NCBI GenBank assembly: GCA_963971425.1
Contig: OZ020518.1
Span: forward strand, 759,001 to 823,000
Direction: 5' to 3'
DNA from: Bryoerythrophyllum caledonicum
Taxonomy: Eukaryota > Streptophyta > Bryopsida > Pottiales > Pottiaceae
DNA length: 64,000 nucleotides
The position numbers and the translations under genes were made by a program. The notes below the pieces were generated by a model that was not told where the DNA came from, searched no databases, and saw only the letters and a program-made list of their open reading frames with translations. Shown here one piece after another: positions 8,172 through 53,703 of this stretch. How positions within the stretch are numbered: the stretch's first letter is position 1; each line of letters starts with the position of its first letter.

Positions 8172-9781
8172 CTACTGATCGAGAACTGCTGCCACTTTCT
8201 CAAAATTGGTGATGCGTTCTTGGTTTCGTTTCCTCTCGAAATATTGATGCAGAAACAGTGCCATTTCATCATCAAGTCCACGAAGGAAGAGATAAAACAC
8301 GAATTCACGCTTGAGGTCTTCCGAGAGTTGTCTGCAAACACACACAAGAGTAATTTAGAATGTATTGTAAAGCCACCTAACGTGATAACCCCTCTTTGAT
8401 ATCAGCTCTAAGTAGTTCTCAATTACTCTAAAATATTACTCTCAAAAGGAGAGAAAGGCGGTTCATATTCTTTACAGCTAAAACTACTTTGACTTGGGTT
8501 GAAAGACCTTCCATTGACTGTATTGAAGGATAAAACCACCAAGCTCGTCTATCCAATCATTTAGAGTGAGCAAAGAGTGGTCTAAAGAGGAGGCATCTCA
8601 TTCTAACCTTTTATCAAATCAGTTCAAGTAACAACAGAAAGTAGAACCTACGAGTTATCCATGGAATCCACAGGTTATCTATGAAAGCTACGAGTTGTCT
8701 CAATTATTCTAACCCAGACTTTGTTCTAATCCTGATATTAGAATTGTATTGATAGGAAATTGCATTGGAAGAACAGAGATGAAAGAATAATGTAGAACTA
8801 GGACTCACTTTTCATGCACCGCGTGATCGTGACCCTTTGTGCCCAAATTCTCGTGAAAGGAGACGTAGTTGATGAAGTACTCGTCCCCATGGCACTGGCA
8901 GCTGATTTCCAGCGCCTCTGGCGCGTCTTCCTTGGTCACAGTGATGGTGAGGTTGATGAGCAGGGCATACGGAGCTTTGACTGGATCATCCTCTTCGTCT
9001 TCTTCGTCACTTGGGTGCAGCAACAGTCCACATTCCACGTTGATCTTCTCGTGGTCAAAGTCTCTGTGTAGCGTCACGTCCAGGGACCCGGGGGTTTCTT
9101 GCAGTGTGTAGGGCTCCGGTGGCGCCACTTCCCTGACCTGGAAGAATAGTTAATCATGAAGATATCAACAGAAGAAAAGAACGTGTAAAGCACATTTGGT
9201 GGTGGGAATTATACATAAAACTACAAATGGTGAGATTTAGTATCAGGTATGGAACATGGGATTCACAAGCACACACATAGTCATCTTTCTACCTCTACTA
9301 CAATGCACACAGCAGTAGTCCTTGAATCCTAAGACAAGGCTAATTCAATTAAATAGAAATAGCGCGTAAAGCAGTTTTAATTTGGAAGCTACCCATAACC
9401 ACATATGGTGACTTTCCGTATCAGGCATGGAACATAGGACTCACTCTAAACCTTGAAGAATAAACTTGCCTACCTCAACTACACAAGGACAATGCGCACA
9501 CCAGTAAAACCCCGAAACCTTAAACCCTACAAACAAGGCGAATTCAACCTCACAAGCATGGCACTCACCACATTCGCAGCCTTCAATCTCCGGACCTCGT
9601 CTCTCAAACTCTGCGCAACCTCGCATTCCTCAACCCCAATTGTGGAGAAGGGCTGTGACCAACGCCATTGTCGCTGCAATTCACAACTCCGAGCTCTTGG
9701 AACCAAAGCTGCCGCTGATTCCAGCCCCTTCTTTCCCGTCCTGGCGATGATCCGTGACGCCGCACGCACTGAAGCCTGCAT
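8172..9781 (-). CDS. MAM33/p32 mitochondrial glycoprotein-family protein
   Basis: Three exons on the minus strand: 9781-9569, 9137-8809 and 8331-8172. Introns are GT-AG and phases agree (0, then 2), giving 233 residues. The start ATG at 9781-9779 opens an Arg/Ala-rich, acid-poor presequence (MQASVRAASRIIARTGKK), as expected for mitochondrial import. The middle exon carries the family pattern ETPGSLDVTLHRDF..EKINVECGL, an acidic stretch (DEEDEEDD) and LLINLTITVTKEDAPEALEISC. The last exon (LSEDLKREFVFYLFLRGL..FLHQYF) matches the C-terminal helical region of p32 proteins, followed by TAG at 8174-8172. p32/MAM33 proteins form acidic trimers in the mitochondrial matrix. Their exact role in plants varies, with links to respiratory assembly and mitoribosome function. 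No break is seen. The upstream region carries telo-box-like repeats. Confidence 0.85.
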
Positions 9782-10680: not shown

Positions 10681-10745
10681 AAGTTGACAGCAAAAAGGAA
10701 AGGTATTTTCTACAGTACAATACCTTTCCTTTTTGCTGTCAACTT
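10681..10745. repeat. Perfect 26-bp inverted repeat (hairpin)
   Basis: The arm 10681-10706 (AAGTTGACAGCAAAAAGGAA followed by aggtat) is the exact reverse complement of 10720-10745, around a 13-base loop. The arm sequence relates to the degenerate repeats that follow (caaagttggca..aaaggaaa), so it may derive from two head-to-head units. Confidence 0.85.
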
Positions 10746-10749
10746 TGAC

Positions 10750-11850
10750 ACCCTCTTTAGGGCTGAACAATTGTTAATTTACCACAAAAGTTTTGGCACA
10801 ATATCATATCTATGTTTATAACATGTGCCAAATTTTAAGGCCACATGATGAATTAAAAAAAAATATTCCAAATTGTTTCTCATAGTTACACATGTTGGTA
10901 GATTTTGAATAACAATTTTTGTATTCATCTTGTGGCCTTGAAATTTGGTACATATGTTGTCAACATAAAGATGATCTTGTGCCAAAATTTTCATGGTAAA
11001 TTAACAAAATCTCAGCCCTAGGGAGGGTGCCGAAGTTGGTAGTAGTGAAATGGTTTCACTTATTTTTTCTCACAACTACACGTGTTTGTAGATTTTGTTC
11101 TTTTCTTTCCTTTTGTGGATCCCCTAAATATTAAATTAAAGACACGTATAACCAACATAAATGTGGTCTCATGTCCAAAATCTCATGGGAAAAAATAAAA
11201 AATTCAATCCTTGGAAGGTGTCAGAATTGGGAGCGATGCTATTTTGTGAGCCGTGAACGATGAGCCGTGAGCGGTAAGTGAAAAAAAAGTAGGAGAGAAA
11301 TCATTATTTTGTACCTTTTTTGAAAAAAATGAAAGTGTTACCTATTACTAAACCATATAACCTAAAATATAAACCTTAAATCCTAAACCCTTAATCCTAA
11401 AATATAAACCCTTAATCCTAAACCCTAAATTTGGTTGCTCAATGCTCACCGCTCACCATTTACCGCTCACAAGATAGCAATCCTCCTTGGAAGTGTGTCA
11501 AAGTTGGCAGGAGTGGATTTTCTCATAACTATACTTGTTGGTAGATCTTGAATAATTTTTTTTTTGTGGATCTCTTCGACTTGATTTTTTCACACATGCA
11601 ATCAACATAGAGATGGTTTGCTCAAAATTTCATGATATATTATTATCTCATGCCCAAAAATTCTATTATTATATCTTGCCCAAAATCCCATGGCAAAGGT
11701 TTTTTTTCAGTCCTTTTTTGTATCTATCTTTTGACCTTGAAGTTTGGCACACATGTTGTCAATATAGAGATGATCTTGTGCTCAAAATTTCATGATATCT
11801 TAGCAATTTTTCAACCCTCACGAGGGTGTTAAAGTTGGCACCTAAAAGGA
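10750..11850. repeat. Diverged tandem-like repeats of about 300 bp
   Basis: At least four degenerate copies share the order: cacatgttgtcaacataRagatg, then tcttgtgcccaaaatttcatgg, then agggtgtcaaagttggcag, then ctcataactacacgtgttgg. They recur near 10790-11040 (partly inverted), 11090-11240, 11490-11680 and 11740-11850. No coding content. The MITE at 11238-11478 is inserted between two units. Confidence 0.55.
11238..11478. mobile_element. MITE sharing termini with the 12.8-kb Mutator-like element
   Basis: The ends GCTATTTTGTGAGC (11238) and GCTCACAAGATAGC (to 11478) match the termini at 12961 and 25794. Like those, they continue into 7-bp repeats of the form GTGAGCG/GTAAGTG. The 241-bp interior has no ORF. 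It contains degenerate telomere-like heptads (about 11370-11435, taatcctaaaccc variants). I see no clear target duplication. Confidence 0.7.
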
Positions 11851-12509
11851 AACGTATTGTACATAAGAACAAGTATGTATACTTATTGGAGGATATTGTA
11901 TTGTACCCAAGGGTTGGTTTCAAATATTTATTATTTTCTAAAAAGAATTGTTTGGCAAAACAAATATTCTTGAGATTCATTTTTCCACCGAGTTAATTTA
12001 TTGAATAATGATTTCCATATTTTTTGGCATTTATTTACTTTGCCAATTCCTACCTTGGGTACAATAATTATTTCATCACAAAAGTGGAGGTTTTGTGACA
12101 GAAATTTGAGTGCCAATACTTTAGATACCCATACAATACCTTGGGATCCCCATCTCAATCCTATAATAGTTTAATTTGAAGTAGAAGATTATCTTTAAAA
12201 TATACCAATTTTTAGACTAGTTTATAGCGGCAATTAAAATCCTATGAAAATTTCAATTCTAGGGAGCACATTTTTCCACAATTGTAAGGACACACTTTTC
12301 TACCAGAGTTTGAAGTATTTTGTATTAGCAATTGATATGTTATGACAAGCATATTATTGTATGTTTCTTAAAACTAAAATTTACTATAAACAATATAATG
12401 TATTGTCATTTTTACATAATCTATGTATACTCTATTGGTTCATTGGATGTAAAAGTTATACTAAAATCATGGCAACCGATTTCTACACCTGTAAGTCCAC
12501 AATAAACCA

Positions 12510-12950
12510 TGAGAATGATGGTGACTAAATGGACAATTGTGTGTAAATCAAGCTAACGACAGAGTCATGTGCTTTGAAAATCCTGACGCTATTAATGATC
12601 TAACTAGACATTCTTGCTCTTATTTTGAATTTGAATTTGACTCACCAAAAATGAAAGTACAATGATGGTGTCTGGAAAGTCACATGTAGACCAAATTCAA
12701 GACCCAGTAAAGCGCTTTACCACCAACACATATTCTAACACCAATCATGTAGAATTAGGCATTCTAACTTCTAAGTGTTATCAAAATTTGATATTGATTC
12801 AACAAAAAAGTAAATAGATTGGCAGTTTTTATAAAGTAGCTACAAACCAAAACTTAAGACCTAGCTTGCTCTTTTGACGCTAATCACGAGGTCTAAATGG
12901 GCCATCAAAAGTCACTACATACTGTATTGAATCTTAATAGCTCACTTTTT
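12510..12950. repeat. Dispersed repeat, inverted relative to 42540-43003
   Basis: The segment gatggtgtctggaaagtcac..tgtagacc near 12664 is the reverse complement of the segment near 42925. Flanking stretches (attgattcaacaaaaaa, gtagctacaaacc) also correspond. Family unknown, no coding content. Confidence 0.5.
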
Positions 12951-12960
12951 TTCCAGGAAT

Positions 12961-13004
12961 GCTATCTTGTGAGCGGTGAGCGATGAGCGGCGAGCGGCGA
13001 GCAC
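12961..13004. repeat. Left terminal inverted repeat with heptad structure
   Basis: After GCTATCTT come five consecutive 7-bp units: GTGAGCG, GTGAGCG, ATGAGCG, GCGAGCG and GCGAGCA. Arrays like this could be binding sites for the transposase. Confidence 0.8.
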
Positions 13005-13743
13005 CGAATTCAGGACAATTTTTACCATTGTTTTTGTTGTGAAATTAAAAAGAACACCTATTGCCGTGAGTGTAGGTGGATTGTGCATCAAAAATTAAAA
13101 ATTAAAAAAATTAACATAAGAGAAATTCTTGACTTACAATCGCTTTAATTTATAGTTTATTATATAGAGGTGCCTATAGCCGTGGCACTATTATTAGACT
13201 TTTGGGGGAAAATTACATCCAAAAGTAAATTGATAAGAGATAATGTAACATATATTACAATGCAAACTTCTATTCCAAACGATTACGATTCTATATATGA
13301 TTAATGGGGGAGAAGTAATAAACATCGCTTGAATAGCTCTGCGACTTGCGGTAGAGGAATTCTCCCGGATGTGTATTACTATTCTAATTAAGTCAAATAT
13401 GTAGTACTATTATAATGACTGTTTAGGTTAAAGGAAATTTCTGCAAGACAGTTTAGGGTGCTGAATGGAGAGAATGATAAAGGTGGACCATCTAAAAATA
13501 TTTCAAACTTTGTATACTATTCATGATGTGAAAATTGTATACTTCTAAATTCAAAGACACATTATTAAAATTGATTAAAATCCATCCGTGAATGATAATT
13601 CAATATCTATTAGATTATCTAACTAGAGTACAAACATATATGTGGATGAAACAAATAATCAAATAAGACATGCAAGGGTGATATATATCCATAAATCCAA
13701 AGCCTCATATCAGGTCAATTCGGCATACAAAATAGAGGAATCA

Positions 13744-16700
13744 CTACTCCTCAGATGTGAACTCATCGTCACTGCCCTGATGGATAAACATCATACTGCT
13801 ATCAGAACCACTATCAGAATCAGTACTAGCCTCCTCAGCCTCGTCATCCAAAAAAACCTTTGCTCCGGAGTCGGATCGAGCAGCCGGTGGACGTCGTAGA
13901 GGCGACGGCTGCGCTACGGATGCGATGGCAACAGCTTCAGCATATTCAGACAAAATATGCGGCTGCTCCGGACTGACAACCTTCCATGCCAAGCGAGCCA
14001 GCACTCCAGCGGGAGGTGTTGACAGGGAAGCCATCAACGACGTCGTCAACCGTCTGCAACTAATATTCAGTAGCAAAATACCAATGATAGAATTACATAA
14101 CAAAAACAACAACTGAATGAAGAGAACTTACTTACAAGTTCTCTTAGGCGCAGTCTTAATCTCTGGTTCATCATCACCAAGCTCTAAAGGGCGCTTGAGA
14201 GAAGTCTGCTCCATGGGCTCAACAATCGCAGAATTAACTTCCAACGTCTCTGGAATCATGGGTCGAAGCACCTCGTCTACCAAGTCCTTGTTTGCCTCCA
14301 AGGCAAGAATATGACGCTTGAGGGCTTTGCAAGCCTTGATAGATGCACCTGTAAAAAGTGTCGATTGCAAATACTAATAAATTAAAATCATGGTTGGATA
14401 ATAAAAAAAATGATTAAATGAAAAGCAAATACCAGTAGAAGCGGTGAGGTCCATGACGATCTCATCCTCCTTGGTGCAAAGATCAATAAGAGCCTCCAAT
14501 AGATTCTGCGACTTCTCTCTCGCTCCTCGCCATGGCATCCCGGTGGAGGCTCTCACCGTCAGTGACTCCTGGGTGATGAAGTTGGTCAGATGACCGTCTG
14601 AAGAAAGCTCAATCCCATCCGCCGAAAGTTCCACTCTATCATTGAAGACAAATGGAATTGGAGGATCCCTCTTTTGAACGAAGCACTTGACCATGAAAGT
14701 CTTGTGTATGCGGCCGAGGCGAACATCAGAGAAGAGGGGAAGTCCATTGATGGCAAACCACTTCGCCTCTTCGTCGAATCCCGACCACTAAGCCCAGGAA
14801 ACCAGTTCATTTGAAATGAACCTGGAGTCTGGATAGAACACAATGATAGCTCTTCCATCACGAAGAAACGACTCTGCCAACTCGAAGTTAAACCGAATCC
14901 ACAATGATTCTTTCCGATCCTTGGGGGTCGGCACTGTAGGTAGTGTGTTCCATGGTGGAATCACAGTACCACCCTCAATGCTTGGAACTGGCAAGTCCTC
15001 CGGGACGTCAAATATGAACATATCCGCCAAACCATCCTCAGTCAACTCCCCCTTCATGTACCGCGTCTTGGATCCGCCATGCGCCATCAACCACTGTGCT
15101 ATATCCCTCCAAACTGACGGAACGTCATCCTCAGCTGTAACTGAATCATACTCAGTAAAGATAGAGTAAGCGCTGGTATGGATTACCTCAACAACTATAG
15201 TGGACTCTGTCTGCTCCACTACAGGAATCGAATAGATGGTCCGCGCTGGTTTTGCAACGAATGCTCATGGGCGGCTGCTGGCGGACGGAGAAGCGCCAAA
15301 AGTTGTCAATACAGGTGCCGGCTGTGAGAATGATCCAAGACCCATGGTAGACAACAATTTCTCGGGCCCCTCTTTCGCCATCAAAGCTGCCAATTCCTTG
15401 TTCCTCACTCGAGTCTCTTTCCTCTCCTTGTGTGCACTCTCCTTCTCCAAACGGGCCGCTTCTTGCTCTGCTCCTCTGGCTGCAATCCTCGCCGCCTTTT
15501 GTTTTGCCCTCTCCTTGGAGTTTTCAGAGATCTCAAGCTCAGGCTCAATCAAGAATGGAGCTGAAGCTTGCAAAGCTAGACCTGCTCTAGAATGAGTAGC
15601 CAAGGCATCACAGGACTCCCGAAGCTCCACCTCGTCACTTGGAGTTGGAGCTGAATGCCAAAGCTCTAAGTACCAAGCACACTGAGCCAAATGATGCCGA
15701 GTAAAACGGCGCACTTGAGACTCTGTGAAGATGCACTCAGCGCTGATTGTGGTAACACACCACTTCCTCAGCCGGATTGGCAACTCCCGAGGCTGCAAAG
15801 CTCCGTTGGCAACGAGCTCTCACCAAAAATATCAGAGCACCACTCTCCTGACACTTTGAGTTGTCTCTGGCTGCTTGAAAAACTCATCAGAATTTACGAA
15901 CGGCTTCGTCCCACTGAAATGGTTCTTAAACGCCTTCTTCCAGAATGTGAGATAGTTGGCCTCCACCCATGAGCCAATATCCAGAACGGGGTTGGGGAGA
16001 CCCTCCATCCTAATGGTGATGTTGTCATCCTCCACGACCTTGGCAAATAACTTCTCTGCCTCCTCCTCAAGCTATATAATGAAAACAAAATGTTAGTGAA
16101 CAAAACTTACAACTGATAGAAAATAAAAACGTAAAACGATTGAGGAAAATTGAACTTAACTCAGCCCAAAATGAAGCCACGTCAAGCGAGGGTTTAAGAC
16201 TGATCTCCGAACATAATGCTTTTGGAAAATTGAATTCATCCCTCCCCTCTTTCGACAAATTCCACCAACGCATCCATCTACCTTTGAACCTCGCAGAAAC
16301 CTTGGAAGTGCAAAGCAATTGCAACCTCTCAATTGTAATTTCCTCCTTGTTCTGATAAACATCATAATGATGAAGAACCTAAATCAAATGATAACAGAGA
16401 AGTAGTCAATAAAAAATAAAAAAATATTTGAAAGATAATGAATGAACGAGTACAATGAATTGAATAAACGAATACCTCTTTGAAAAACTCTTCACCATTA
16501 CGAGGGTCAGCAATGGCAAGAAGTCGGGTGAGTAAGGTGCCACATTGAGTCTTCTTCTTTTGCACCGCTTCGGAGCATAGAGTGACCAACTCCGCAAAGC
16601 TTCCAACACGATCAGCCCCAACACCGGTCACAAGTGTGTCACGGTAAGTTCGAATACAATCTTCTTGAGCTGCAATAAGCTCCCGCTACACGAAGAAATT

Positions 16701-19700
16701 TTTGAACATAATTAGAATACATTCCCAAAAAAATACAATAACATAGCATATATGTATTCTGGGGCATAGATAATAGCATAGAGTACACAAAGTTGGACCA
16801 AATTCAATCCCAACGTACCTCATAAAGTACCTTCAAGAATGAATCGAAGGTCATATGGTACCACTTTTTGGTACCCTTTCTAGCCTACTACGCCACGCTA
16901 GCATCGTGATCCTCCTCACTATTCAGACCCTTGAGCTGATCGAAGTCCAACAATCCAAAATGCTGAACTCTCTTCACATCATGTGACAGTTGTTGTGTCA
17001 CATGGTCGGAGTCTTTCTGCCTGAGTGACAATGATCATAAACTTCAAAGTCATGCGAGAATAACAATAAAAATACAAATCTGTTGAAAAAACCAAACCGA
17101 AATAGGAAATAAAGAAAAGAACTCCCTTGTTCCAGTCCGTCATGGCGTTTAGTAATATATGGCGGTTCCCCAATGTAGGCTCCAATAAAACTGCCCGGAC
17201 TGGAATATGAAAGGCAGAATCGTTCCTATGCATGGTGGATATGACATCCATCCATGCAAGATGGCGGTGGTTGCCATCCCACACAAAAAAGTAACGATCA
17301 GAAAGGCATTGTAACTCTGGCCTATTTGCAATCAAAGCTTCGAAGTTGTGGTCCTCCGCCCTCCAAAGCTCTTACCATCCCTCAGGCCTTTCAGGCAGAA
17401 CTTCCCGTTCGACCATGGAAAAGTCTTTCAATGCAACATAAAAACATGCAGATCCTTGGCGGTAGCCTTTGACAAACTCGCTCTTCAGCTTCTCTATGTC
17501 CAGCTTCACTGGAATACGCACCTCCGCCATTGGCAACATTCGGCAGAGTGGGATGTGCAACTCCCCAATAGACGGATAATGAGACTTTTGGAGCACATCG
17601 TAGGAAGTCCCACGAATGGACTTCCTCAATGAAAGCTCTATTGTGTCCAAACTGGAATCTATCCCTATCACCGGTATAACTTGCAGGACTAAACTCGAAT
17701 CAACATTCGGCAATCTCAAAGCCTCTGGAGCCGGCGATCCCGAAGCCCCTGGAGCCGAAGTCGTGTCCTCACCTGGCATCCCCAAGTCCTCAGTTGGCGT
17801 GACCTTGTCTCCGTGGAGTGACTCCATCTGATGACATCCAGTGTCAATCATATGGATTTACAAACAACAGCATGAAAGAAGTGCTTTTCTAAACTCAAGG
17901 AATAATATCAAATGCAACAAAATATGAAAGAAGCAACAGGACACAAGATGTATGGAGCATGATATGACTTAAACTCAGCATGAAAGAAACCATATTGCAT
18001 ATCGAGACGTTTAAAAGTAATCCAGCTTGTTTGGACAAGGTCCACAATGCAGAATCAAAATAAATAATTCAGAAGTAAATGGATTCTAAACATTGAATGA
18101 ACTAAACGAGTAACCATAAGAAGCTTCAACTTCGATGAAGGTGCTACTAGTAAACAAAACAAAATGAATCAAAAATCAGCTGTGCATACAGTCAATCGGA
18201 TCCAAGGGACCCGATCCTACCATCAACTTAGGTTTTTAGGGCACATCAATCTATCTAATCTAAATTCTCACTACAACAATCGGAAACCTAATCTAGAGAT
18301 GAACTGAAATGGACCTAGAACACATACGTGCTAAACTGAACTTAGATTCTAGAACTCACGATTGATGGAAAGCTCAAGCACGAATACTCAACAAGCTCAC
18401 AGTGCTACGATGCAGGTGAAAACCAAAAACCAAAAAAAAAAAACCAGAATTCAATACTCCTCACAGTACCTCGGATCCGAGGGACTCGAGTCGACCTCCA
18501 AGTTCGGTATTTGTTTTCATCTATCAATCTTATTTTTACTCTATAAAATGCAATCGCAAACCTTATCTAGAGATGAACTGAAATGGACCTAGAACACATA
18601 CCAACTAAACTGAACTTAGATTCGAGAACTCACGACTGATGGAAAGCTCAAGCACGAATACTTAACAAGCTCACAGTGCTAGGATGAAGGTGTAAGCCAA
18701 AAACTCCAAAAAAAAAAGACCACAAATTAGCACTCCTCACAGTACCTCGGATCCGAGGGACCCTAGTCTACATCCAAGTTCGGTTTTTTTTTTTTACATC
18801 TCTCTATCTTATCTAAACTCTGTTGAATGCAATTGTAAACCTAATCAAGATATAAATTGAAATGGACCTAGAACACGTCCCAGAAATACTGAACTAAGAT
18901 TCCAAATAGCACAGACAGTCTGAATGCTCAAGCACGAAACACATCAAGTAGATTAAATGTGTCAGAAGGTGTAACCGAGAACCAACAAAAAAATCCACAA
19001 TCCAGTGCACACAGTCCCTCAGGGTCGAGGATCAAGAGGCTCTATTCGAATCTAGAATCCAGTCTATTGATAAGAAGAGGAAGCATCGTCATCCATTCCA
19101 AGAAGATGCATAACAGGTTTCATGTCTGAGTAGAGTTTGAATTCACAATTAAAGTGATCTGGTTCTTCCCGGCTTCGACAGCGTCTGCTCCAAAGCTCTT
19201 GAACCCAACTTCGGCTCGACTCTCAGAAACGCCAACCTAATTGTGTCTCAACCCATTTAGGGTTTATGGAATTCTATGAACTATGCTCACAAGATCAGGG
19301 TTTATAGGAATGAAAATCTAGAAATGGGTGTTGGGTAAATTGCGGCAGACTTGTGTTCAGACTTCAAATACAAGTACCGAACTTCGAAAGCAGACACAAG
19401 ACTTAGCAAACCCGATTTTGAAGTGAAACGAGTGAGTTGAAAATTTTTTCTACTTACCTCTCTAGTTTGCGGCTGCAGCTCCACGTCGTCATGCGTCTGT
19501 CCACTTCCTTCACCGTTCTCACGACCTCCTGCCTACAAGAGAAAGGGATTCCTTCTTATGCACATCAGGGTTCAGCAAATCCACCTTTCATTTAACCTCA
19601 TGTTCATGGACGACTCTAAAATGCGATGCTATGGCAGAAACTATAGTTGAAATAGTTTACCACACCAGAAGTATACTTCAGCTGCCACTTGTAAGTTCAC

Positions 19701-20650
19701 AAACTACATGGTATGTAAAGTAGATGTTCAGTGAAGCCACACAGTAGCAACAGCTCGTGCTCGAGTTGAATTCAAAATGATCCAGATGCCTTATAACTCG
19801 CGAATATTCAATCGGTCAATCTCCTCACATATTAAAAAACAGATTCTAGAAACCTAATAGTCTAGGAAGCATAACGCACAGTATAGTTGGAGATGCATTG
19901 AGCTATTTAGGAAACCAAACTTATGATGCATATTGTAAATCGTTCTGATGATATTGTACCTGTGTCATTTGGGCCCGCTTTGCACCCAAAAGTATTGGGA
20001 CAGATTCCCCCGCGCTTCCTCGATCGTTCCTTGGTCGACCATTGATTGCCCTTGACGAGGACCTATTCCTATTCCTTGTGGATCGTGTTGAATTCACTCG
20101 GCTCCTAGGGTCCATACTTGAGTCCATGCTTTGACAGTCATTGTCGTCAACAACACCGTTTGCACCCTTACCCCCATGCATCGAGCTTATTGGCGCATTA
20201 GGTCCCGTGAAATCACTCGTCATAATATCTTGTATAGACTCTTGTTCCCCCCTTTCTCTACGCAGCTGCATCACATAGCTGTACGACTACACAGTACGAA
20301 TTATAGTATGACCAATACCGGATTGCACTATTGAAAACTAACTAATCATATGAAAATGAAGCACTTACTTCGACGGTATTGAGTGGCGCCTCTTCTGCTT
20401 GAAATATACTTGACAAATTCCTGAATTGCACGGGCCCCTCAGATGACAGGTCCTCACGACTCTCCTCTAAAACCAAGGCCTTGTGCTCTTGTCGCTGCGT
20501 TCGGGACCGACTGGGCTTTGGATTTGAGTCGTGTGTTGTTCTTCCCTTCCGGCCACCCTTGCTTGTCATCCTCTGCAAGTCGTCCTGGTCACATTGAACA
20601 TTTTCACCAGGGTTCGGCTCCAATGATATGGCAAGACATCGTTGAACCAT
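13744..20650 (-). pseudogene. Transposon cargo: ParB-like domain plus beta-class DNA methyltransferase-like protein, with stops
   Basis: Exons I can place: 20650-20369 (ATG), 20265-19960, 19532-19458, 17827-17123, 17016-16819, 16685-16476, 16378-about 16161, 16071-14433, 14348-14132, then about 14057-13744. The N-terminal exons are basic, low-complexity and Ser/Arg-rich. Exon 17827-17123 reads like a ParB/sulfiredoxin-type N domain: a RIPVKL strand, then YFFVWDGNHRHLAWMDVI and HIPVRAVLLEP. A helical region follows. The 16071-14433 exon has FIFDVPEDLP where the methyltransferase motif IV (DPPY) would be, then DGRAIIVFYP. Across the next junction comes motif I, DEIVMDLTASTGASIKACKAL..LALEANKD. 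Motif IV before motif I is the beta-class order. An acidic tail ends at TAG 13744. In-frame stops lie at 17372-17374 (TAA), 16885-16890 (two TAGs), 15265-15267 (TGA) and 14788-14790 (TAG). One or two frame slips occur near 15840. The protein would be about 1,200 residues. Activity is doubtful because motif IV is altered. Confidence 0.65.
18180..19040. repeat. Three tandem copies of a 275-285 bp unit in the cargo-gene intron
   Basis: The landmarks cggatccgagggac, gaactgaaatggacctagaac and gaaagctcaagcacgaat recur at spacings of about 282, 276 and 272 bp, starting near 18190, 18472, 18748 and 19020. Copies also share an A-rich tract. They lie in the 19457-17828 intron of the minus-strand gene. 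Confidence 0.8.
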
Positions 20651-21459
20651 AATTACCCCTACTTAGTTCTATGTTACTATTTCAAGCAGTTGCCAACGGA
20701 ATGGCCCATAATCCGCATCTAGTTTATCAATTGTTGTCAGCCTTAATTTGAATTTCAAAAACAAAGTTAGTCGTGGCTATAGCATCTCTATTCTTTGCTT
20801 CTGCAGTCACAAGCATTTGACTTTTCCAAATTTATCATTTATTTTAAGTGAATAACGACAACACTGGGGAATAATTAACTTTAAGCAGACTTAGTGGCTT
20901 AGCAGATACAACTACTGCTTATCTATTTGTAAATTGCCGACTCAGATCATGACCTCTAGATTTGAATCAGAACTTTGTCGTGTATAATAAAGATGTGTCA
21001 GATTGTGTGCAAGTGGTACTGGCAAACTAAGAATGCACTATTCCACCGTAAAGAGAAACTGCGTGCTATGCGATTCTTGCAGTAAACAAAGTATTTTACT
21101 CTATTACAATTAGTCATCTCTCATCTCTCTTCTCATTGGATATTTGCTGTCAATTTAGTTAAAAACAAGTGAACATATAGCATACCAACTTTATGGTATA
21201 CTCCGCCTCAGTAGAATCAACCTATTAATTTCTATCCTTAATTTGAAATCTTTTCCATTTTCATTGAGGCGCCGTCAGGGAGCGTGCATGGGCATCTGAC
21301 AGAAGGCATTAAATATTTTCGCCAATTATGAGCACGATGCGTTTTTGTAATTGGATGTCTCCACTGAGATGTTTAGGCAAGCAGTTGATTTCTACAATAT
21401 ACAACCGCCATCGTAGACAACACGCATTCCATATCCTATGTTGTGGAGAGCTCTTGACT
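20651..21459. promoter_or_regulatory. Divergent intergenic region of the Mutator-like element
   Basis: About 800 bp between the starts of the minus-strand cargo gene (20650) and the plus-strand transposase (about 21460). It presumably holds both promoters. I could not assign a specific TATA box or other motif with confidence. Confidence 0.35.
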
Positions 21460-24400
21460 ATGGCGTCACTCACATCTCAGTACGGTGGTGTTCCGTTTGT
21501 CGTGTCCGTTGGTGAAAATGGAACTATCAATGTCCCGGAGGCAGTCCTCAGTAGTCGCTTTTGGGTTTAGACTTGGAACCGTTCATGTTGAATAAGAGGT
21601 GTTTGATAGCTCGGGAGTATTAGAACATTCTATATACCAAGTGGAAGATCGAGACGATTTAGGCTTTCTCTGGAATCTGTGTCGTGGTTCTTTTAATGTA
21701 TATGGTGTTAGGGATACTCAAACGTCCGCTAATGCGTCGTGTGCCGTGATGGTCCCTCCTACCGATTCCGATGATACGATACTTGTGCCCGGTTTGGGCA
21801 CACGGTCTAACCCAAGTATGCAGCTTCTAAGTGACACAGACGAGGACCTCTCTGATGTCAATTTGGGGGAATCATCGTACACCTTTAAGTCACAAGACTC
21901 GATCTGTCCCGATGCGTCTATCCATACGCCAAATATGTTGCACATGTCTCCGTCTCTTTCCTTTAGAAAACCACCTATCCATCCAAATTCTAAAAGTATC
22001 CGCAATATCATTCCATATGTTCGTAGGACCTGTTCTAGAAAGGGATCCGGTTCTGAGTTGACACACGTGGATTTTGAGAGCATTGAGGTTTCACGTGTAA
22101 AGTATTTGCCTCCGTCTTACAACGGGGACGTGTTGTTTGAGTTGCCTCCACTTCCAGAAGGCATACCAACTCAGTTTGGAGGAGGACTGGATGGTATGAG
22201 CAAGCAACACGATGGTCACATATGGTGCAGGACAATGACTACGAATATCATGAACGATTTTGGCCTGACATTCGTATGTCAGACCAAAATGAAGGTCATC
22301 TTGTACTGGCCATCTTCAATGTCCTAACCTTCATTGTGACAATAAGTGCAGGAATGAAGGTCGCACTAATCAAACAGAGTGAAGTGGACTCGCCATTTCC
22401 CCCTGGCCTGTCAATGGCGCTCCGCACCCGAAATCAACATTGGCTTGTAAGGTTTGTCAAACCCCGCCTATTTGTCTAGCTCTTTGTGATGCACGTATTT
22501 ACTATATGGCGTGTACCGATTCGGAGCACACCCGACTTGCCATTCATCTTGGTATTTACCAGCATCCCATCTCGAATGGAGTTGACCAAACCGCAATGGA
22601 CGTGATGCATGAGTGCGTTGCGAAGGAAGTCGAGCGTCCACCCAACGCCACTAATTCGGCAATCACTATGGCTGCCAGTAAGAATTATCTTTCTGATTAC
22701 TTGATCCGTCCCGGATCGAGATCATCAAACCTTGAAGGAGCATCCATGGATGTTGTCTTGGATCAGTTCCAGACTTTGTCATCCCCTAACATAAGGAATT
22801 TGATTTCGACATGCTAGCGCTTCTACAGTGGTGGGAAGGGTGTCATGGTTAACATCATGGAGCTAATGGAGTCGTCCAAGTTTGTCTTCATCCATGAGAA
22901 CAAGTTCCCGAGCCAATCTAAAGGTAAGGTATTTGTGTTTAAAATGTTTGTTGATCGTTCTGGTAGCAGTGTTGATCTTGTTTGGCGGATGCAACCTGGT
23001 GGAGACCTCCAAGATTGTTGGTTGATGTTTGATCACGTAAAGCGGGTTAAAGACTAGACTACCATGGCATGCCATGTATACGACAGTAAGTATTGTAAAG
23101 TTATGACGATAGCTATGTGTGATATACAATCGGAGGATGGTCAAGAACAACAGTTGTTTTGGGAGAACCTGAATGACTACGATGTTGAATCACGGAGTGG
23201 AGAACACGAACTTTAAAGGGTTCATGGCTGATAGTGCCGGAGCGAATTGGCACGCTGTCCGGCGAGTGTATGGCAATGGCGACAAGGACGTCCCAATCAA
23301 AAACAAAGAACGGACTTATTTATTCCATTGGACCAAGTGCCTTCAAGGAGCCACCACGAAGAGCATTCTATCAGCATTCCAAGATCAATACATTGCACTT
23401 TGCAAGATTTGGAAGAACGCGAGATCATAAGAAGAGGATGAAGCACAGTACAACGTCATTCGTGGATAGTGGATTTCATCTGGGGCCACTACCGAAAGCG
23501 GGCGTCGTGCACTGGAAGATTGGATGGCATTTTGGCATTTCCGATATAGACAATGGGGTGGAGCAATGCAATTAGTAAGTTTTCGCATTTTTTGTTTATA
23601 AATATTCAGATTGTTGAAAAGTTATATGTGAACGATGTACTGACCATTGCTGTATAATATCAGGACCTCACACTCGACGAGCGAGCTGACATGCCATCAT
23701 GTAATCTTGTGGAGACAGTCCACAACCGCTGGCTTCAATAGTTCGGGAATACCATGACATGTTTATATGCAGCTACCGTGGATGACCTAATTCGGGCTGT
23801 CATGCAAATCACTTTGTACCGGGCATGGATCAATGGAGGGACCTCCGGAAAAGGTCCAGACAAAGGTACGCTTCGATCAAGATCTGCCCAACGTTTTGGT
23901 GATCCAAGACTCATTGCAGAAGTTGTGCGGAGTTTTCCGGGGACAGAGGATCTCTTGACAAAGACGGGCGGGCTCGTAGGAGCGGAGATTTTTGGATCTA
24001 CCAAACGGAAACTTGACATGCAACTTGGATCTAACAACGACTCCCACCGCTCCGATACGGTGAACTATTCGATTCCACGAGATGGCAGAAGGGTGACTCG
24101 GGCACGGATCGAAGAGGTCCTAATTGAACAAGGTTCCGGGGTCCGTCACACAATGGTAGTATTGGAAACAGAGTGTGATCCGTCAAAGTGGCACATTGGT
24201 CGACTTCCGAAGACCTCCCACCGAAAGTGCTTGGCATTGCAAGCTCACACCGGTGAGAGGTGTGACGCCCGAGTTGGGCGTGGGAGTAAGGGAACACCTG
24301 CCCCAACATATATTGGCAAGAAGAAGGAGTTCAGGCTGCCAGAAACACTTGTGTCAAGTTTTGATTTTGTGCTGATGATATTAGCCGATGCGTGATGGGT

Positions 24401-25030
24401 TCGAAGAAATCGTTTGTAGTGGACTGGCCATTAGTCCCAATGACATGGCCAGTGAAGCTTGGCACGAACCTAACGACGCAAGAAATTTTATCGTTAGAAG
24501 AAGCAGGTTTTCAGTTAGAGCAACGTGGTGTTTTGTCGCCTCGTAGACAATTCCAAGTAACTTTGAACATGCCTCTTCCGTGATCAAACTTTCCGCTTCC
24601 AGAGAATCCGGACTCATACCATACTTTCCGCAACGGCTACCAGATTTGCCAAAGTTCAGACGTGCCTTCCGTTGAGCACCGAAACAAGTGGTCAAGCCCA
24701 GCTCTGATCAAGAATTGCTACATTACGAATGTCACCGCAATGCCGTATCCGGGATTTGGATGCGTTATCACTCTTCTCACGGAGAAGGAGAAGTCTTATT
24801 GCATAACCTTTACAGACTACCCACCGTGTACATGTCCAGATTTTCTGAAGATTTCAGTGGAGGCGTTGGGGAAGAAAGGGCAATGGAAGTACTGCAAGCA
24901 TGTGTACTACATCCTACGCTATTTATGTAAGATGGACTACAAGGAGGACTTATTCATGCATGCCCCAAGCTACAGCTTTAACGAGGTCATGCGCATTCTA
25001 GAGCTTGCTAATATTGCCGAGCAAGCATGA
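21460..25030 (+). pseudogene. Mutator-like transposase with SWIM zinc finger, degenerate
   Basis: Begins at an ATG (21460) and is recognisable to the TGA at 25028-25030 in several frames. Segment 21599-22327 is an acidic N-terminal region. In a shifted frame near 22295-22400 comes a zinc-ribbon-like CTGHLQCPNLHCDNKC..NQTEW, as in N-terminal Mutator DNA-binding regions. Segment 22845-23430 carries the core: VFIHENKFP, KVMTIAMCDIQSEDGQEQQ, then FKGFMADSAGANWHAVRRVY and LFHWTKCLQ. These look like the catalytic Asp and histidine regions of a DDE transposase. Segment 23754-24395 is a basic linker. Segment 24662-25027 has the SWIM finger, CTC..CKH (about 24830-24903). Frame changes and stops (for example near 21568, 22327, 23057 and 23430) mean no full product. 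Some may be unrecognised introns. This is the likely mobilising enzyme of the parental element. Confidence 0.7.
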
Positions 25031-25758
25031 ATCTCGCAATGAAGTATCTTCTGAATAGTATTTGTATTTTGCAGTAGCTCGTATTTGAACATGTGCATTG
25101 GTTTTGTTTGTCACGTGTATGGCTAGTAGTCAATGCATGAGTGAATTTATCACTCGTACTTCTCTTCAATATACTAATTTATATTACAATGTATCATTTT
25201 TTCTTATACATTATTTTAACCGGCTTCAGAGATGCTATGTTAGCAACATGGAGAAGTTATGTCATGTATTGGCATCATATAACATCTCCAATTTTGAACC
25301 ATGCAAACTCCATGTGGAGAGATGGGGTATCTTAAACCATTGGACAATAGTTTATAATCAAATATTAGAGCATTAGAATATTATTTGTTCCAAATGTTGT
25401 TATTATAGCTATCACGATGAAATTATATGACTTCACATCCCTTACTATTGGACTTCACAATCATTGTAAGTTTTATCAAATTTTATTCAAATTTTTTATT
25501 TGATTGTGGACTCTGTAATTTCAACCTTTTAATAAATGGAAATAAAACCGCGAGTTGATAGTCGTGGACATGAGCGACGAAAGGGAGTCGCAAAAAAACG
25601 TCTATGGTTAGTGGTTCCACGGCTATAGGGTACCTTCTAAGTTAAAAAAATTCTTTGAATTTTTCTCGCAAACTTTGAGAGACTTATCGTTACTTTCCGT
25701 GAAAATTTTAAAAATCTGGAAAAAAACAACTTTTTTTTCTTGTTTTCAGACTATTTTC

Positions 25759-25794
25759 TGCTCGCCGCTCACCGCTCACCGCTCACAAGATAGC
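25759..25794. repeat. Right terminal inverted repeat of the Mutator-like element
   Basis: Reverse complement of the left end over about 36 bp with one mismatch, again made of GCTCACC/GCTCACA heptads. Confidence 0.8.
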
Positions 25795-27314
25795 GTCGCT
25801 GACTTTTTTTCCATCAATTATGAAGTCTTATTGCCATGAAGTCTTATTATATACTACCATTATTCAATATGTGTACTATAACAAACAAAAAGTGATGTAA
25901 ATAGCAACTAGATTACTCCCCAATTAATAAGATAGGGTTCCTATGTCAAATAAAGATATATTTGAAAGCATTGTAAATGCACTCGTTCAAATTATAACCA
26001 ACATGAACATGCACCAAGCCTCTTCTACTTACATGAAGCACAATTGAGTGACAACATACAATAGTTAGATTAACGTGTAACAATTTAGTAAGGGACATTT
26101 TGGATAAAATACTATATTTCTAGGATTCAATTTTTTACTTCAAATTATCATTAATTAAGGTTGAACTAAATATAAATAGGGGAAAGAATGTAAAAAGGCT
26201 GTTTAAGACACTTCAATAATTTCACTTTTTGTTTGGACCCTAGGCTTTCTTCTCCTTGTTCTAATATTCTCTTGCTATTTTTTAAGATTTTGGTACAACC
26301 TTTAATAAACCTTTGAATGTGTTTGTGAGCACGGTTTTTTTCATGTTTCCAATTCACTTTGACCATTTATAATTTCTATTGATGAATATGCATTTCAGAA
26401 AGATTTCTTGTCAAAAAACCTATACATATTAATCTAAAATTTAATAGGACCCTTATAAGCTAATCCTTGTTTTTGCTAAGAAGTGACGAGATGATCTTTG
26501 TATACCAGATATCTATTTGATTGTACCTATTTTGTTGTATTATCTATTTAATTGTACCTACTAATATATATCCCATCTCTCTACCCTTTATAAAGAACCA
26601 AAGTAGAACTAATTCGAACGGTCTTTTAACCTTAGAACCCAACCTACAAATTTCAAACTTCTCTTTCATCTTCCAACATGACTTTCAAAATAACTATCTA
26701 TGTGTACCAATACATCCATATTTTAGTACAATGTAAACCTAGACTTTAAATCGAAGCATGTTCCAAAGTAGTACATTTAGAGCCGCTTCACACCTAACGC
26801 TCAAGTTGAGAGGCCGTTGGTTTCCACTAATGAGATTGCTAGAATGGTCAAAGTTTGGCCTTTGGGCCTTCACACTTGTGCCCGAAGTCCAAAGGCCGTT
26901 GTCCTCCATTGTGCCTACATGGAAACAATTTTGCGGAGTTTTGGCGCCAAGGCGACGGCCTCTCGAGCAAAACTTGGGTCGCCCGTTTTAGTCAATCCAA
27001 ACTTTCTTCGAGAGTTTGTCGATTTTTTTAATAAAACAATCAATGGAGAGCCTTCCTTCCTCCTTCCTTCCTTAGATGTACATGCACGCAATTCTCCTTC
27101 TCTTATGGCAATTACAGTCTTTGTTTTAGCTTCCAACATGCGTTGTAATTGTTCTTTCGCTCCCATTTTTGAACATTTTGGCTCAATTTTTGGTTTTCAT
27201 GAGTGTAAGAATCCACTCATGGGTGAGGTTACATGCAAGGATGGTTGTAATGCTTCCAAAGTTCAACCGCATGGCCAGAGCTTGCCGCAAGAAATTCACT
27301 CAACTTTTTGCTTC
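25795..27314. other. No intact gene seen
   Basis: AT-rich sequence to about 26750. From 26758 the composition becomes gene-like, with short ORFs on both strands (for example 26817-27371 +). I recognise none of them. They may be decayed parts of the Harbinger-type element whose transposase fragment lies just to the right. Confidence 0.3.
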
Positions 27315-30983: not shown

Positions 30984-32082
30984 TTAACCCCTAAAAGCCC
31001 AAGGCATTTTCCCTCATGAAACACTCCAAAACTACCATCATCAACAAGTGGCAACGAAATCTAACATTAAAGTCTAATTTTAGACTTTAAACCATACATT
31101 CTTAAAATAGACACATATATAAACTTACAATACAAATTTGGTTGCAATCCTCCGCACGGATGTGAAGATTATAGCGTTGTGCAAAGAAAAGTATTTTCCC
31201 CCCCTTGCCCAGCAAGGTCAACCTACTTTGACTAGGCATATCTTCTAGTTTTTACATTGAAATGTGATCAAATCTTTTACCAACATGACTTACATGTTGT
31301 TAGCTATTTGTGCGCAAAATTTGAGGTCAATTCAAGGGGTAATAGATGTAGAAATATACACTTTAGTGAAAGGGGGTACAAAATGATGACAATTACTACA
31401 TAAGTGATATGAAATTGTTTGTTTCATACAAGTTGTTGCATTTGAGAATCCCAATGGTGGAAACTTTCAATTTATTTTTTCACTAATTTTAGAAAAAGAT
31501 ACACCTAAAATTAATAAATCCATAATTTTCATGAATATATGGAATAAATAAAGCATTATGGGAAAAGGCAGTGCTTGAAATTGGGTGGCCACTTTGACCC
31601 GTTGTTGACCGCCTTCGCAGTTGGGAAAATAAAAAATAAAAAATAAAAAAATAATTGGCTGGCCCGCTCTTCGTGCGAGACGCTGGCAGGCCAGTTGTCA
31701 GCTGGTTGTTTGTTGTTTTTTTAAAATTATTTTAATAACTCTTTCAGTAATTTTCAAAGTTTTTTCTACTTGGACTTCGTGCATAGAAGTTTGGACTCCT
31801 TTCCTTGCCCTTTCTGTCCCAAAATTCTGCCCCATTTTTTCTTCAAATTGCATTGGTTGACATGGTTGCCCCTATGGTCCAAACTCCCCATTTTGACCTT
31901 TGAAGGCTAATAACTTTTGAATCAAAAGTCCAAAATCATATTTGAAAAATTCCCCATATAGATTTCATTAAGGACAATGCAGTGTAAAATTTTCATAAGA
32001 ATCGGAGTATTTTTCCACTCAAAGGTACATGCCCAAAATCCAAAACGTACGCCCGAAGTACACTTGGGTTCTTAGGAGTTAA
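30984..32082. mobile_element. TTAA-flanked piggyBac-like element, copy 2
   Basis: The ends are TTAACCCCTAAAAGCCCAAG (30984) and, reverse-complemented, TTAACTCCTAAGAACCCAAG (to 32082). The right arm also shares TTTTGGATTTTGGGCATGTA (reverse strand) with the left arm of the copy at 44465. No ORF. The right TTAA directly abuts the copia LTR at 32083. Confidence 0.65.
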
Positions 32083-32467
32083 TGTTTAAAGAAGTAGAGA
32101 GATGGTTGCACAAACAAGTGAAAGATACATAAGGTAGTATTGTACAAACAATGCTTGGAGTGAGATGTTGTCTTCTTTCAAAGGCCTTTACTTATACTAT
32201 CACTTAATGGCGTCTCATGCATCTTATAAATGACTTCTCAAGCAACTTGCAAGCCCATCTATGCCAACTCATGGCCACCCACTTGTCCTTGCTTATTCCA
32301 AGCAAAACATGTGGGTTGGTTCTACCTCTTTGACCTTGCGCCATACATGTACCTCTCAAGTTCCTTTCACATCTTCTTCTTTTCTCCCAATTTACTTTTC
32401 CCTCTAAATCTGCCTCAATAATTATTTACAATGTCATAATAACTACAAGCAACTCTGAACTCCAACA
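32083..32467 (-). repeat. Copia LTR (3' LTR of the minus-strand element)
   Basis: Begins TGTTTAAAGAAGTAG and ends CTCCAACA on the plus strand. It matches 37166-37545 along its length. TG..CA ends are intact. Confidence 0.9.
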
Positions 32468-32477
32468 CTCCCACTTT
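32468..32477 (-). promoter_or_regulatory. Polypurine tract of the copia element
   Basis: Minus strand AAAGTGGGAG lies directly before the 3' LTR start TGTTGGAGTT. This is where plus-strand DNA synthesis is primed. Confidence 0.8.
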
Positions 32478-35400
32478 GTCAGTAGTTACTATCTCGCAAT
32501 TCCATCTCATTACTAACCTTTGATGTCGCTCTCTCGCAAGTGCCTTCGTCAACACATTGGCCACAATGTCTTCCGTTGGCCAATACTTCAAGCTATTCTC
32601 GCCGCTCTCCAACTTCTCTCGAACGAAGTGATGTTGTACATCAATGTGCTCCGTGTGTGAGTGGTGTGTACGGTTCTTTGCAAGAGCTACGCACCATTTG
32701 TTATTACACATGATGGTTGTTCTACATTCTTGAATAAACCCCACATCCGCCAAGAGCTTGCGAAGCCAAATGGCCTCCTTTGTACTTTGGCTAGTTGCCA
32801 TGTACTCCGCCTCCTTCATGGAGAAGACAATGGAGGGTTGCCTCTTGCAATTCCAAGAGATGGCACCATCTTCTACAAAAAAACACATATTTCCTTGTAG
32901 AACGACGATCGTTCGCATCTCCAATCCAATGCGCATTGAAATAGCCCCTCATAGCAATGTTATTACCGCCAAGCTATAATTTGTTGTTCTAGGTACCTTG
33001 CAAGTACCGCATGATGCATTTTACCGCACTCCAATAAGATGGACCAACCTAAGACATGAAGTGGCTCACCATGCTCACCGCAAAAGCAAGGTCAGCCCGT
33101 GTGGCCACCATGGCATACATCAATGATCCAACTCCACTCTTGTATGACAAGCCTTCCATCTCACCTTGAATGACTTGAAACTCTTCCCCCAAAAACTTCA
33201 ACAACTTGACATTCACATCGAGAGGAGTATCGATGGGCTTGCATTCCTCTATGTTGAAGCGCTTGAGCACCTCCTCAACATACTTCTTTTAGCTCATGGT
33301 GATGGTGCGTGCCTTGCGGTCTCTCACAAATTCCACACCAAGACAATACTTTAACTCACCAAGATCGTTCAACTCAAATTCCGTGTTGGGCTAACCTTTG
33401 AGCCACGCTAACTTAGCCAAAAGGCTAGCCAATGTGATCAAGTCATCCACATAGATGAGGACTGTTAACCAGTACTCATCCGTTTGCTTGATATATAATA
33501 AGTGATACGCTTCACTTCTTGTAAAGCTCTATTTGATGGAAAATGAATCGATCCGTTAGTACCAAGCCCTTGGAGATTGCTTAAGTTCGTACAACAACTT
33601 CTTGAGCTTGCACACAAGCTGCTCAAAGTCCCTCTTCTCAAAACCTTGCGATTGGCTGATGAAGATGTTCTCTTCCAAATAGCCATTCAAAAATGCGGTC
33701 TTCACGTCTATTTGATGGATCTCTAAATCCAATGCGGCTCCAAGCGCAAGGATGTACCTAATGGTGTTGAACTTTGCAACGGGAGCAAAGGTCTCGAAAC
33801 AATCCGCTCCTTCAACTTGAGAGTATCTCTTTGCCACCAACCGCGCCTTGTGGCGCACAACTTGACCCGAAGCATTATTTTTTGTGCCAAACACCCACTT
33901 GCATCCGTCGCTCTTGCGACCCTTTGGAAGGAGAGCCAACTCCCAAGTTTCATTTGCCATGAGCGAGTCATACTCCTCTTGTATGGCCGCCTCCCACTTG
34001 CTCGCATCCTCGGATTGCATGGCTTCACACACGTTTAATGGATCCACATTGGCCCTATTCCATCAACACCTACATCGTGGCTCCTACTATCCTCATCAAC
34101 AGTTGGTGTTGATGTAGGTGTTGTTGAATGCCCCATGGTTGCACCTCCTTCAACACCATCCACCATCTTCTCCTTCTTGGGATCACTATCACCTGTGGTA
34201 CTTGATTTGGAAGATTCGTACACCAAAAGCAACGAAGGCGTCTCACTACTCCTACTTGAACTCATTTTCAAACCATGACCAACACTTGAGCTATCTTCAA
34301 CAAACACCACATCATGACTCCAAATTATCTTCTTCGTCTCAACACACATGAGGCGACATGCCTTGGTGCCCTCGCAATAACCAACAAACAAACATTTTGT
34401 GCCTTTTGCATTGAGTTTACCCCTCTTTGCATTCGGCACCATTGCATATGCAATACATCCAAACACACGCATGTGTGCAATGCATGGCTTGCGGCCGCTC
34501 CAAGCCTCTTGTGGTGTGATGGTGACAAGAACCTTTATTGGGCATCAATTGTGGATGTCCACCGCATTGGTCATCGCTTCCGCTCAAAAAGCAAGTTTGA
34601 GCCGTTGAGTATAGATCATACTCCTTGCCATCTCCACAATGGAGCAGTTAGCTCGCTCCGCCACTCCGTTTTGCTCCGTTGTGTACAATGTTGATGGTTG
34701 CCTCTTGATGCCGTGATGCTTCAAGTAGCCTTCAAATTCATTAGAAATGAACTCTCCACCATTGACGGACCAAAACACCTTGATCTTATGCTCCGATTGC
34801 TTCTCCGGAAGCACCTTGAACTCCTTGAACTTCTCAAGGCACTCCCCTTTTGTCTTCAACGTGTACAACCACACCTTCCTTAAAAAGTTTTCAATGAAGG
34901 TCACAAAGTACCTTGCACTGCCAATGGACGTGGTCCTCATGGAGCCGCACACATCCAAATGTACAATTTCCAAGGCTTTGTGGCACGAGTCCCTTCATCC
35001 TTTGAAAATATTGCCCTATGTTGGTTGCCTTGCACACACCCTTCACAAAATGACATAGATGACTCATCTTTGCCAAGGGTCATCTCACTTACCATGCTTT
35101 GAAACAAATGCACACTTCTCACGTTCAAATGACCAAGTCAACGATGTCTAGGCTCCATGGCGCCATTCTTGCTTCATGATTGTGCCAAATTTGTGGCATC
35201 CGCCTCATACACCTTGGTGGAGGCCACTTGGTACAAGTTGTCTTCACAACGTGCCACCTCAAGTACATCTCCATTTGGTGCCTTCATTTTGTACCCATGC
35301 AAATTGAATTGCACGTTCATACCGCATGACACAAGTTTGCTCACCAAGAGCAAGTTTGCTTGCAACTTGGGCACATAAAAGACGTCCTTGATTGTCTGTA

Positions 35401-53317: not shown

Positions 53318-53354
53318 TATTGCCAAAAAACGCTGCAATAAATCAATACATATC

Positions 53355-53532
53355 AGTATATATGTATACTATATTATACAATATAAAAATCCAGAAAAAA
53401 CATTACAAAAACTCATACAAACCAAAAACAAAAACAAAAACTTTAGTATATTTATATACTAATAAACACAACAATTACAAAAAAAATATAAACAAAAACA
53501 AAAAAAGATATAATATAGTATATATATATACT
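53355..53532. repeat. Three AT-rich palindromes between ORF1 and ORF2
   Basis: agtatatatgtatact (53355-53370), agtatatttatatact (53445-53460) and agtatatatatatact (53517-53532) are near-perfect or perfect 16-bp palindromes in otherwise A/C-rich, unstructured sequence. Confidence 0.85.
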
Positions 53533-53561
53533 ATTGTCATACCAATATTCTACCAAAAAAT

Positions 53562-53703
<142 letters not shown>

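Follow-up and report, generated by a model that had tools for sequence, protein, structure and literature searches.

The window analysed here, 64,000 nucleotides of the moss Bryoerythrophyllum caledonicum (GenBank assembly GCA_963971425.1, contig OZ020518.1, positions 759,001 to 823,000; coordinates below are those of the window), contains an element of 12.85 kb with matching inverted ends, a target-site duplication and two divergent genes. Our explanation, which we put forward tentatively, is that it represents a decayed two-gene Mutator-like plant transposon whose second gene encodes a DNA-binding regulator able to recognise its own element. The protein of this second gene combines an N-terminal ParB-like domain with a permuted methyltransferase-like domain that has lost the catalytic DPPY motif, and the gene carries the palindrome CTCGGATCCGAG within intronic tandem repeats. 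A more far-reaching version appears doubtful to us: here the methyltransferase half of a bacterial-type fusion would have turned from a writer into a reader that binds CTCGGATCCGAG arrays multiplied by each family, giving a parS-like or VANC-like anti-silencing system of independent prokaryotic origin.

The element spans positions 12954–25801 and is bounded by terminal inverted repeats of 42 bp (12954–12995 on the plus strand, 25760–25801 on the minus strand), which agree in 38 of 42 bases. Their 22-bp core, GCTATCTTGTGAGCGGTGAGCG, matches exactly at both ends and was expected 0.00 times in 100 shuffles even with up to three mismatches. Direct reading of the flanks revealed the duplication ACTTTTTTTC at 12944–12953 and 25802–25811, which measures 10 bp as drawn and 11–12 bp if the end is placed one or two bases further in. 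When 20,000 pairs of positions were drawn at random from the window, one gave a match of at least 11 bp, and on this test a poly-T accident was rejected as the source of the duplication. The initial annotation had placed a multi-exon minus-strand gene (13744–20650) inside inverted termini. Both segments it cited were indeed located on the minus strand, the VWDGNHRHLAWMDV segment at 17284–17243 and the intron-split MDLTASTG|ASIKACKAL at 14454–14433 and from 14348 onward, and the ends reported here enclose them together with more than the earlier coordinates, including the divergent plus-strand gene. Matching ends are known from this single copy, a point that counts against our explanation; the intron-bearing relative described below lacks ends within its 4.7 kb. 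A MITE-like element (miniature inverted-repeat transposable element) of about 250 bp at 11232–11484 has ends related to those of the 12.85-kb element, with three mismatches per 22 bp at each end, as is expected for a family having non-autonomous members. It is flanked by an imperfect direct repeat, some 25 bp long (CCTTGGAAG...), in place of a clean duplication of 9–11 bp. Viral contigs were scanned with the families of both the methyltransferase and the ParB-like part, with the SWIM piece, with the terminal core and with the palindrome, and yielded zero relatives.

The plus-strand gene (21460–25030) is divergent from the minus-strand gene, frameshifted and, as judged by eye, probably a Mutator-type transposase. 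It exhibits a zinc-finger-like N-terminal part, an aspartate at 23031, a second aspartate at 23230 followed by FHW, a glutamate at 23712 in NLVETVHN and a C-terminal SWIM-like CxC..CxH (24827–24901). We take this order of D, D, E and SWIM to be that of Mutator transposases. The assignment as a transposase was made by eye alone, and the decayed conceptual protein yielded no Pfam match, including MULE DDE, at E values up to 10, which counts against our explanation. In the passages of PMC6446971 that treat Mutator-like elements (MULEs), these are described as having target-site duplications of 8–11 bp, SWIM-bearing transposases in many groups and second genes that are often antisense. The duplication beside the inverted repeats, 10 bp as drawn with an exact match reaching 12, agrees with that length. 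Mutator-like is the best label for the element, unproven and supported more weakly than its ends are.

The minus-strand gene starts with an ATG at 20650 and stops at 13744. From the ParB-like exon through the stop codon its structure is secure and comprises seven exons. The first of these (17127–17827) harbours the ParB-like domain at about 17563–17127 and has 23 relatives. It is followed by three middle exons at 16819–17020, 16476–16685 and 16160–16378, and by a large fifth exon (14433–16071) with the linker, the motif IV region and the target-recognition domain (TRD) of the methyltransferase-like domain. Exon 6 (14132–14348) encodes the stretch beyond motif I and a basic tail, and the last exon occupies 13744–14053. 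Upstream of 17827 the exons were predicted from splice sites in the window alone: a first, narrower splice pattern gave no model, and a wider one gave 18 open variants with GT-AG sites, one of which has three 5' exons at 20650–20369, 20286–19960 and 19532–19458. This copy of the gene is dead. It contains seven in-frame stops, one of them within the ParB-like exon (EGW*ELWRAED, the asterisk denoting the stop).

Protein relatives were searched in a set of 5.8 billion proteins with exon-sized queries. The methyltransferase exon retrieved 15 clusters (E 1.4e-93 to 2.5e-48) and the ParB-like exon 23 clusters (E 1.4e-80 to 1.4e-27), while a full-length query of 1165 residues found no relatives among the 8000 best candidates scored. 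Twelve of the 15 methyltransferase-exon relatives stop within four residues of the end of the window exon past motif I (one is shorter, two are longer). The relatives of the ParB-like exon behave similarly, with 12 of 23 ending precisely at the NK of the window exon, ten longer and one shorter. Both sets look like single-exon gene calls.

A scan of a collection with one genome per species uncovered a gene that is complete from the ParB-like exon onward, on a contig of 4691 bases (CADCWO010000058.1, hereafter L017). It encodes 1136 residues in seven stop-free exons separated by GT-AG introns. The contig is filed under a desert-crust cyanobacterium as part of a metagenome-assembled genome; because the gene bears introns, L017 is probably a eukaryotic contaminant, perhaps from a crust moss. 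It is 99% identical to P0019, and the two are not independent. Counted from the ParB-like exon to the stop codon, L017 and the window agree in their layout of seven exons and share its introns. Exons 2, 3, 4 and 6 have equal lengths in both (202, 210, 219 and 217 bp) and nucleotide identities of 70.3% (L017 exon at 1314–1515), 64.8%, 56.6% and 67.3%; the last exons are 50.5% identical. Relative to L017, two splice donors of the window copy appear altered. A chance run of open frames was ruled out as the origin of the gene by the conserved introns together with the relatives.

Comparison of the two coding sequences gave proportions of synonymous and nonsynonymous differences of 0.72 and 0.29, and a dN/dS of about 0.15 (bootstrap 0.08–0.21, with 264 of 300 replicates defined and dS saturated). 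Since synonymous differences far exceed nonsynonymous ones, the protein is, as judged from this pair, one long held under purifying selection, in the ParB-like exon and the remainder alike. It appeared quite unlikely to us that the gene is a captured passenger, that is, a host or laterally acquired gene lying between the ends in the manner of a Pack-MULE and useless to the element. Such an origin would fit with a copy whose ends have been seen once and with the proneness of MULEs to acquire host gene fragments, as noted in the same passages of PMC6446971. It accords poorly with the 15 and 23 clusters of related proteins, with a palindrome at the same place in two loci and with a divergent layout that resembles the algal cargo gene described in passages of PMC12477816.

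The C-terminal half of the protein was recognised as methyltransferase-like by several profiles. The window sequence matched Pfam PF01555 (N6_N4_Mtase) with an E value of 4.8e-6 and 27.1 bits at a cut-off of 26.7 (27.6 bits for a trimmed piece), and 12 of 16 family members matched the same profile at E values up to 1. Further matches were obtained with PHROG 3008 (E 1.8e-6) and, in the PDB, with CcrM (E 0.0043) and DpnA. The motif-IV-like strand FIFDVPED (15018–14995) precedes motif I, DLTASTG (14433–14451), the loop for binding of S-adenosylmethionine (AdoMet) at the end of the exon, as in permuted beta-class enzymes. This order of motif IV, TRD and motif I was recovered by hhalign against five phage ParB-methyltransferases as one collinear alignment of 167 columns, in which DVPE falls opposite DPPY and the two copies of motif I coincide. 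Its score of 24.8 compares with a decoy maximum of 22.3, so that none of 60 column-shuffled decoys was as good; the nominal probability is 3.6%, with thin alignments. The permuted N6/N4-methyltransferase-like domain that had been proposed from the sequence is thereby upheld. Several results speak against it: the NCBIfam match to CcrM lies well under its cut-off (25.8 versus 830), intact L017 reaches just 20.5 bits for N6_N4_Mtase, under the cut-off of 26.7, and none of 39 PDB matches of the family profile at E values up to 10 was a methyltransferase, with an alignment that included the low-complexity linker and in which most rows stop at motif I.

The catalytic motif is absent from every family row that covers its place. 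At 14998–15009, where the hhalign alignment places the phage DPPY, the window reads D-V-P-E, and none of the 12 rows covering motif IV (of 16 rows) retains [DNS]PP[YFW] or any aromatic residue; the readings are DVPE in nine rows and DIPE, DVHE and NVLE in one each. Motif IV of L017 likewise lacks the aromatic residue. Of the 15 rows that reach motif I, 13 keep its final glycine, and because of this AdoMet binding seems possible. For the rotifer enzyme N4CMT, the passages of PMC8885841 report that substitution of SPPY by APPA abolishes activity. Given this precedent, and with all 12 rows devoid of the aromatic residue, ordinary amino-methyltransferase activity is unlikely, as far as the alignment can tell. 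The suggestion that the element modifies its own DNA consequently finds no footing in a motif that is replaced, mainly by D-V-P-E. An active amino-methyltransferase, whose ParB-like part would target the element and whose methyltransferase would write N6-methyladenine or N4-methylcytosine on it, is in our view an unlikely account. It could draw on the profile similarity, the motif order and the retained AdoMet-binding loop, on purifying selection over the whole protein and on the same idea having been voiced for algal elements in passages of PMC12477816; it has to contend with the missing aromatic residue and with the inactivated rotifer mutant. We favour a self-recognising regulator over an active methylase because the repeats are laid out as in VANC targets and because the candidate site is a palindrome of the GGATCC type.

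The N-terminal half carries a GNHRHLA box (17255–17275, minus strand), the equivalent of the ParB motif G-x-x-R-x-x-A, in which N, H and R are invariant in 24 of 24 rows and G is nearly so. The surrounding conserved blocks, IPLCRM..P...VR....DVEKLK.EF..GY, F.VWDGNHRH.AW..VI, PVRAV and LLNAMTDWN, occur in the order of the ParB N-domain, to which a lineage-specific insert adds about 40 residues. Local hhalign against 16 phage ParB domains gave a score that was reached by one of 200 decoys (three of 200 after removal of the insert). A purpose-made profile alignment yielded z 3.5, a value reached by 2 of 150 decoys, and z 3.6 (0 of 150) once the insert had been removed; on repetition it gave z 3.1, and 22 control windows stayed at or below 1.93. 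Phage ParB-methyltransferase proteins exhibit the same domain order, ParB followed by a permuted methyltransferase. The ParB-type N domain claimed in the initial annotation is therefore borne out by the invariant box and by a weak but specific profile similarity, but not by Pfam ParBc (PF02195), which 0 of 24 family members matched at E values up to 10. Also at odds with the label, no ParBc match was found in Pfam, NCBIfam or PHROGs, the local hhalign match spans 7 columns at low probabilities of 3–5%, and the global mode carried no ParB signal, with 98 and 90 of 200 decoys scoring as well. The ParB-like label is supported on the strength of these alignments, but more weakly than the gene structure, the family or the loss of DPPY. 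That the domain is unrelated to ParB and bears its GNHR motif by chance strikes us as improbable. The silence of Pfam would suit this idea, as would the six PDB matches of the family profile at E values up to 10, which included neither ParB nor Srx. A collinear similarity that exceeds decoys and controls would then be hard to explain, as would a ParB-methyltransferase domain order already known from phage proteins and from an algal transposon protein.

Candidate docking sites are located 5' of the ParB-like exon, in a predicted intron where tandem repeats with units of about 274–279 bp extend over 18150–18996 on the minus strand. They hold CTCGGATCCGAG exactly at 18470–18481 and 18746–18757 and with two mismatches at 18195–18206; the two exact copies are the only ones in the 64-kb window. 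A further match with two mismatches is found at 20097 in the 5' part of the gene, and altogether five matches with at most two changes occur in the window, compared with 0.71 expected. In L017 the palindrome is present three times within the 551 bases ahead of the ParB-like exon, in a repeat unit unlike that of the window. Positions 16–45 and 338–367 of L017 are perfect 30-bp palindromes centred on CTCGGATCCGAG, which could form RNA or DNA hairpins besides being bound by protein. The same CTCGGATCCGAG is the sole word of at least 12 bases common to the 5' regions of the window and L017. Of 500 shuffles, none produced a common palindromic 12-mer; common palindromes of 10 bases arose in 3 and of 8 bases in 53, and no shuffle had two copies of a palindromic word on both sides. 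Beta-class methyltransferases often recognise short palindromes, GGATCC being such a site. We infer that the CTCGGATCCGAG repeats are candidate sites of the element's own protein, which would bind them and act through them.

Set against this proposal are the following points. One of the five matches and near-matches (758) lies outside the element; a shared word of at least 12 bases arose in 40 of 200 shuffles, so that its length by itself is ordinary; shuffling breaks tandem repetition, and the repeated copies are no independent sign; and the palindrome test was post hoc and covers two loci. Significance of the shared 12-mer through its length alone was accordingly rejected.

The position of the arrays bears on a further possibility, which we likewise regard as unlikely: that the protein assists transposition like mudrB of MuDR, in excision, integration or recognition of the ends, with no part in the control of silencing. 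Its conservation at the protein level would be compatible with such a role, as would the second genes that, according to passages of PMC6446971, several MULEs carry, often antisense to the transposase. The palindromic arrays point elsewhere, in that they lie away from the ends, within the intron predicted ahead of the ParB-like exon. Passages of PMC5735166 describe how VANC proteins bind short motifs of their own elements and remove silencing there; the targets of VANC21 are such motifs, arrayed by tandem repetition in introns and upstream regions. The likeness to VANC of VANDAL elements, of which the repeat arrangement alone was compared, consists in a second gene of a Mutator-like element and in tandem-repeated short motifs in introns; the VANC21 motif YAGTATTAY is non-palindromic, whereas the candidate site CTCGGATCCGAG is a palindrome.

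With a self-recognising regulator as the preferred reading, the element could have worked as follows. One of its genes would supply the probable transposase. The product of the divergent second gene would measure about 1100 residues or more and begin with the ParB-like domain, followed by a middle part that matches no known domain and by a methyltransferase-like domain of the permuted beta class and of prokaryotic type. This protein would mainly bind DNA in a sequence-specific manner and recognise the element that encodes it; the CTCGGATCCGAG palindromes in the intronic tandem repeats are its putative docking sites. The methyltransferase fold would serve the recognition of the palindrome, and perhaps the binding of AdoMet, instead of methyl transfer. 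Once bound, the protein might oppose silencing, or control how its family is transcribed or transposes, in the way that VANC acts for VANDAL.

Similar cargo is known from algae. The passages of PMC12477816 describe Sola1-1_Ec32 of Ectocarpus, a Sola1 element of 21.5 kb in which a 1104-residue protein with ParB-like and N4/N6 methyltransferase domains is transcribed in the direction opposite to the transposase. They refer to Iyer 2011 and Petroll 2025 for similar proteins from green and red algae, and offer the guess that the cargo marks the element's own DNA. Compared by description of their architecture, the algal accessory proteins and ours share the two domains, the size, the direction opposite to the transposase and the setting in a large DNA transposon. 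The window element differs in its plant genome, 42-bp ends, duplication of 10–12 bp, Mutator-like transposase, lost catalytic motif and palindromic arrays; land-plant carriers, the catalytic motif and target repeats go unmentioned in those algal passages. The fusions of the Streptococcus phages Javan65 and EJ-1 also have ParB first and the permuted methyltransferase second, but these phage proteins (L002–L006) are of about 390–420 residues, with an intact DPPY, no introns and no long middle region. MuDR-type elements, as portrayed in the passages of PMC6446971, resemble the window element in duplication length, in a SWIM motif (here SWIM-like, as read by eye) and in an antisense second gene, whereas the plus-strand gene here lacks a Pfam MULE match and the ends measure just some 42 bp. 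Transposons with TET/JBP or SET genes (passages of PMC12730594) likewise carry epigenetic-type cargo, with different enzyme families and hosts.

The statement that no plant Mutator-like element with this cargo had been described has been overtaken in part: ParB-like/methyltransferase cargo as such had already been reported for algal transposons in the passages of PMC12477816, and for a plant Mutator-like element none was found in open-licence papers, among the matches listed. In the main text of a paper on Physcomitrium patens transposons (PMC7466625) the terms MULE, Mutator, methyltransferase, ORF and capture are absent; a paper on eukaryotic N6-methyladenine (PMC12695648) mentions neither moss nor ParB, and a review of plant gene capture (PMC13317346) neither methyltransferase nor ParB. 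What looks new here is the plant host, the Mutator-like element, the lost catalytic motif and, in both loci, the palindrome-bearing tandem repeats that lie 5' of the corresponding exon.

The surrounding DNA of the window is plant-like, with a NAF domain as in CIPK kinases at 1193–1714 and a MAM33 domain at 8805–9149. Left of the transposon, a cluster of inverted repeats at 10708–11869 (arms of 120 nt, 78% identical) probably comprises more small DNA elements. To its right, direct repeats at 32079–32467 and 37162–37545, 92% identical, bracket minus-strand copia-like frames (32415–36256) and are probably the long terminal repeats of a decayed copia element. A perfect 24-bp palindrome, CAAGAGTCCCTCGAGGGACTCTTG, occurs at 38300–38323. 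A large non-LTR retrotransposon occupies about 48.7–60.9 kb, with reverse transcriptase and RNase H-like regions recognised by eye; just ahead of its long frames, an open frame (53203–54147) contains the 2A-like motif CGDIETNPGP at 53785. To our knowledge, 2A-like peptides in a plant long interspersed nuclear element would be unusual.

The moss element extends ParB-methyltransferase cargo to a plant Mutator-like element and supplies both an intact relative and a concrete candidate target, with which the guess of self-marking made for the algal transposons becomes testable. Should the domain that lacks DPPY bind the repeats without methylating them, a bacterial modification enzyme would have been turned by transposons into a factor of self-recognition.

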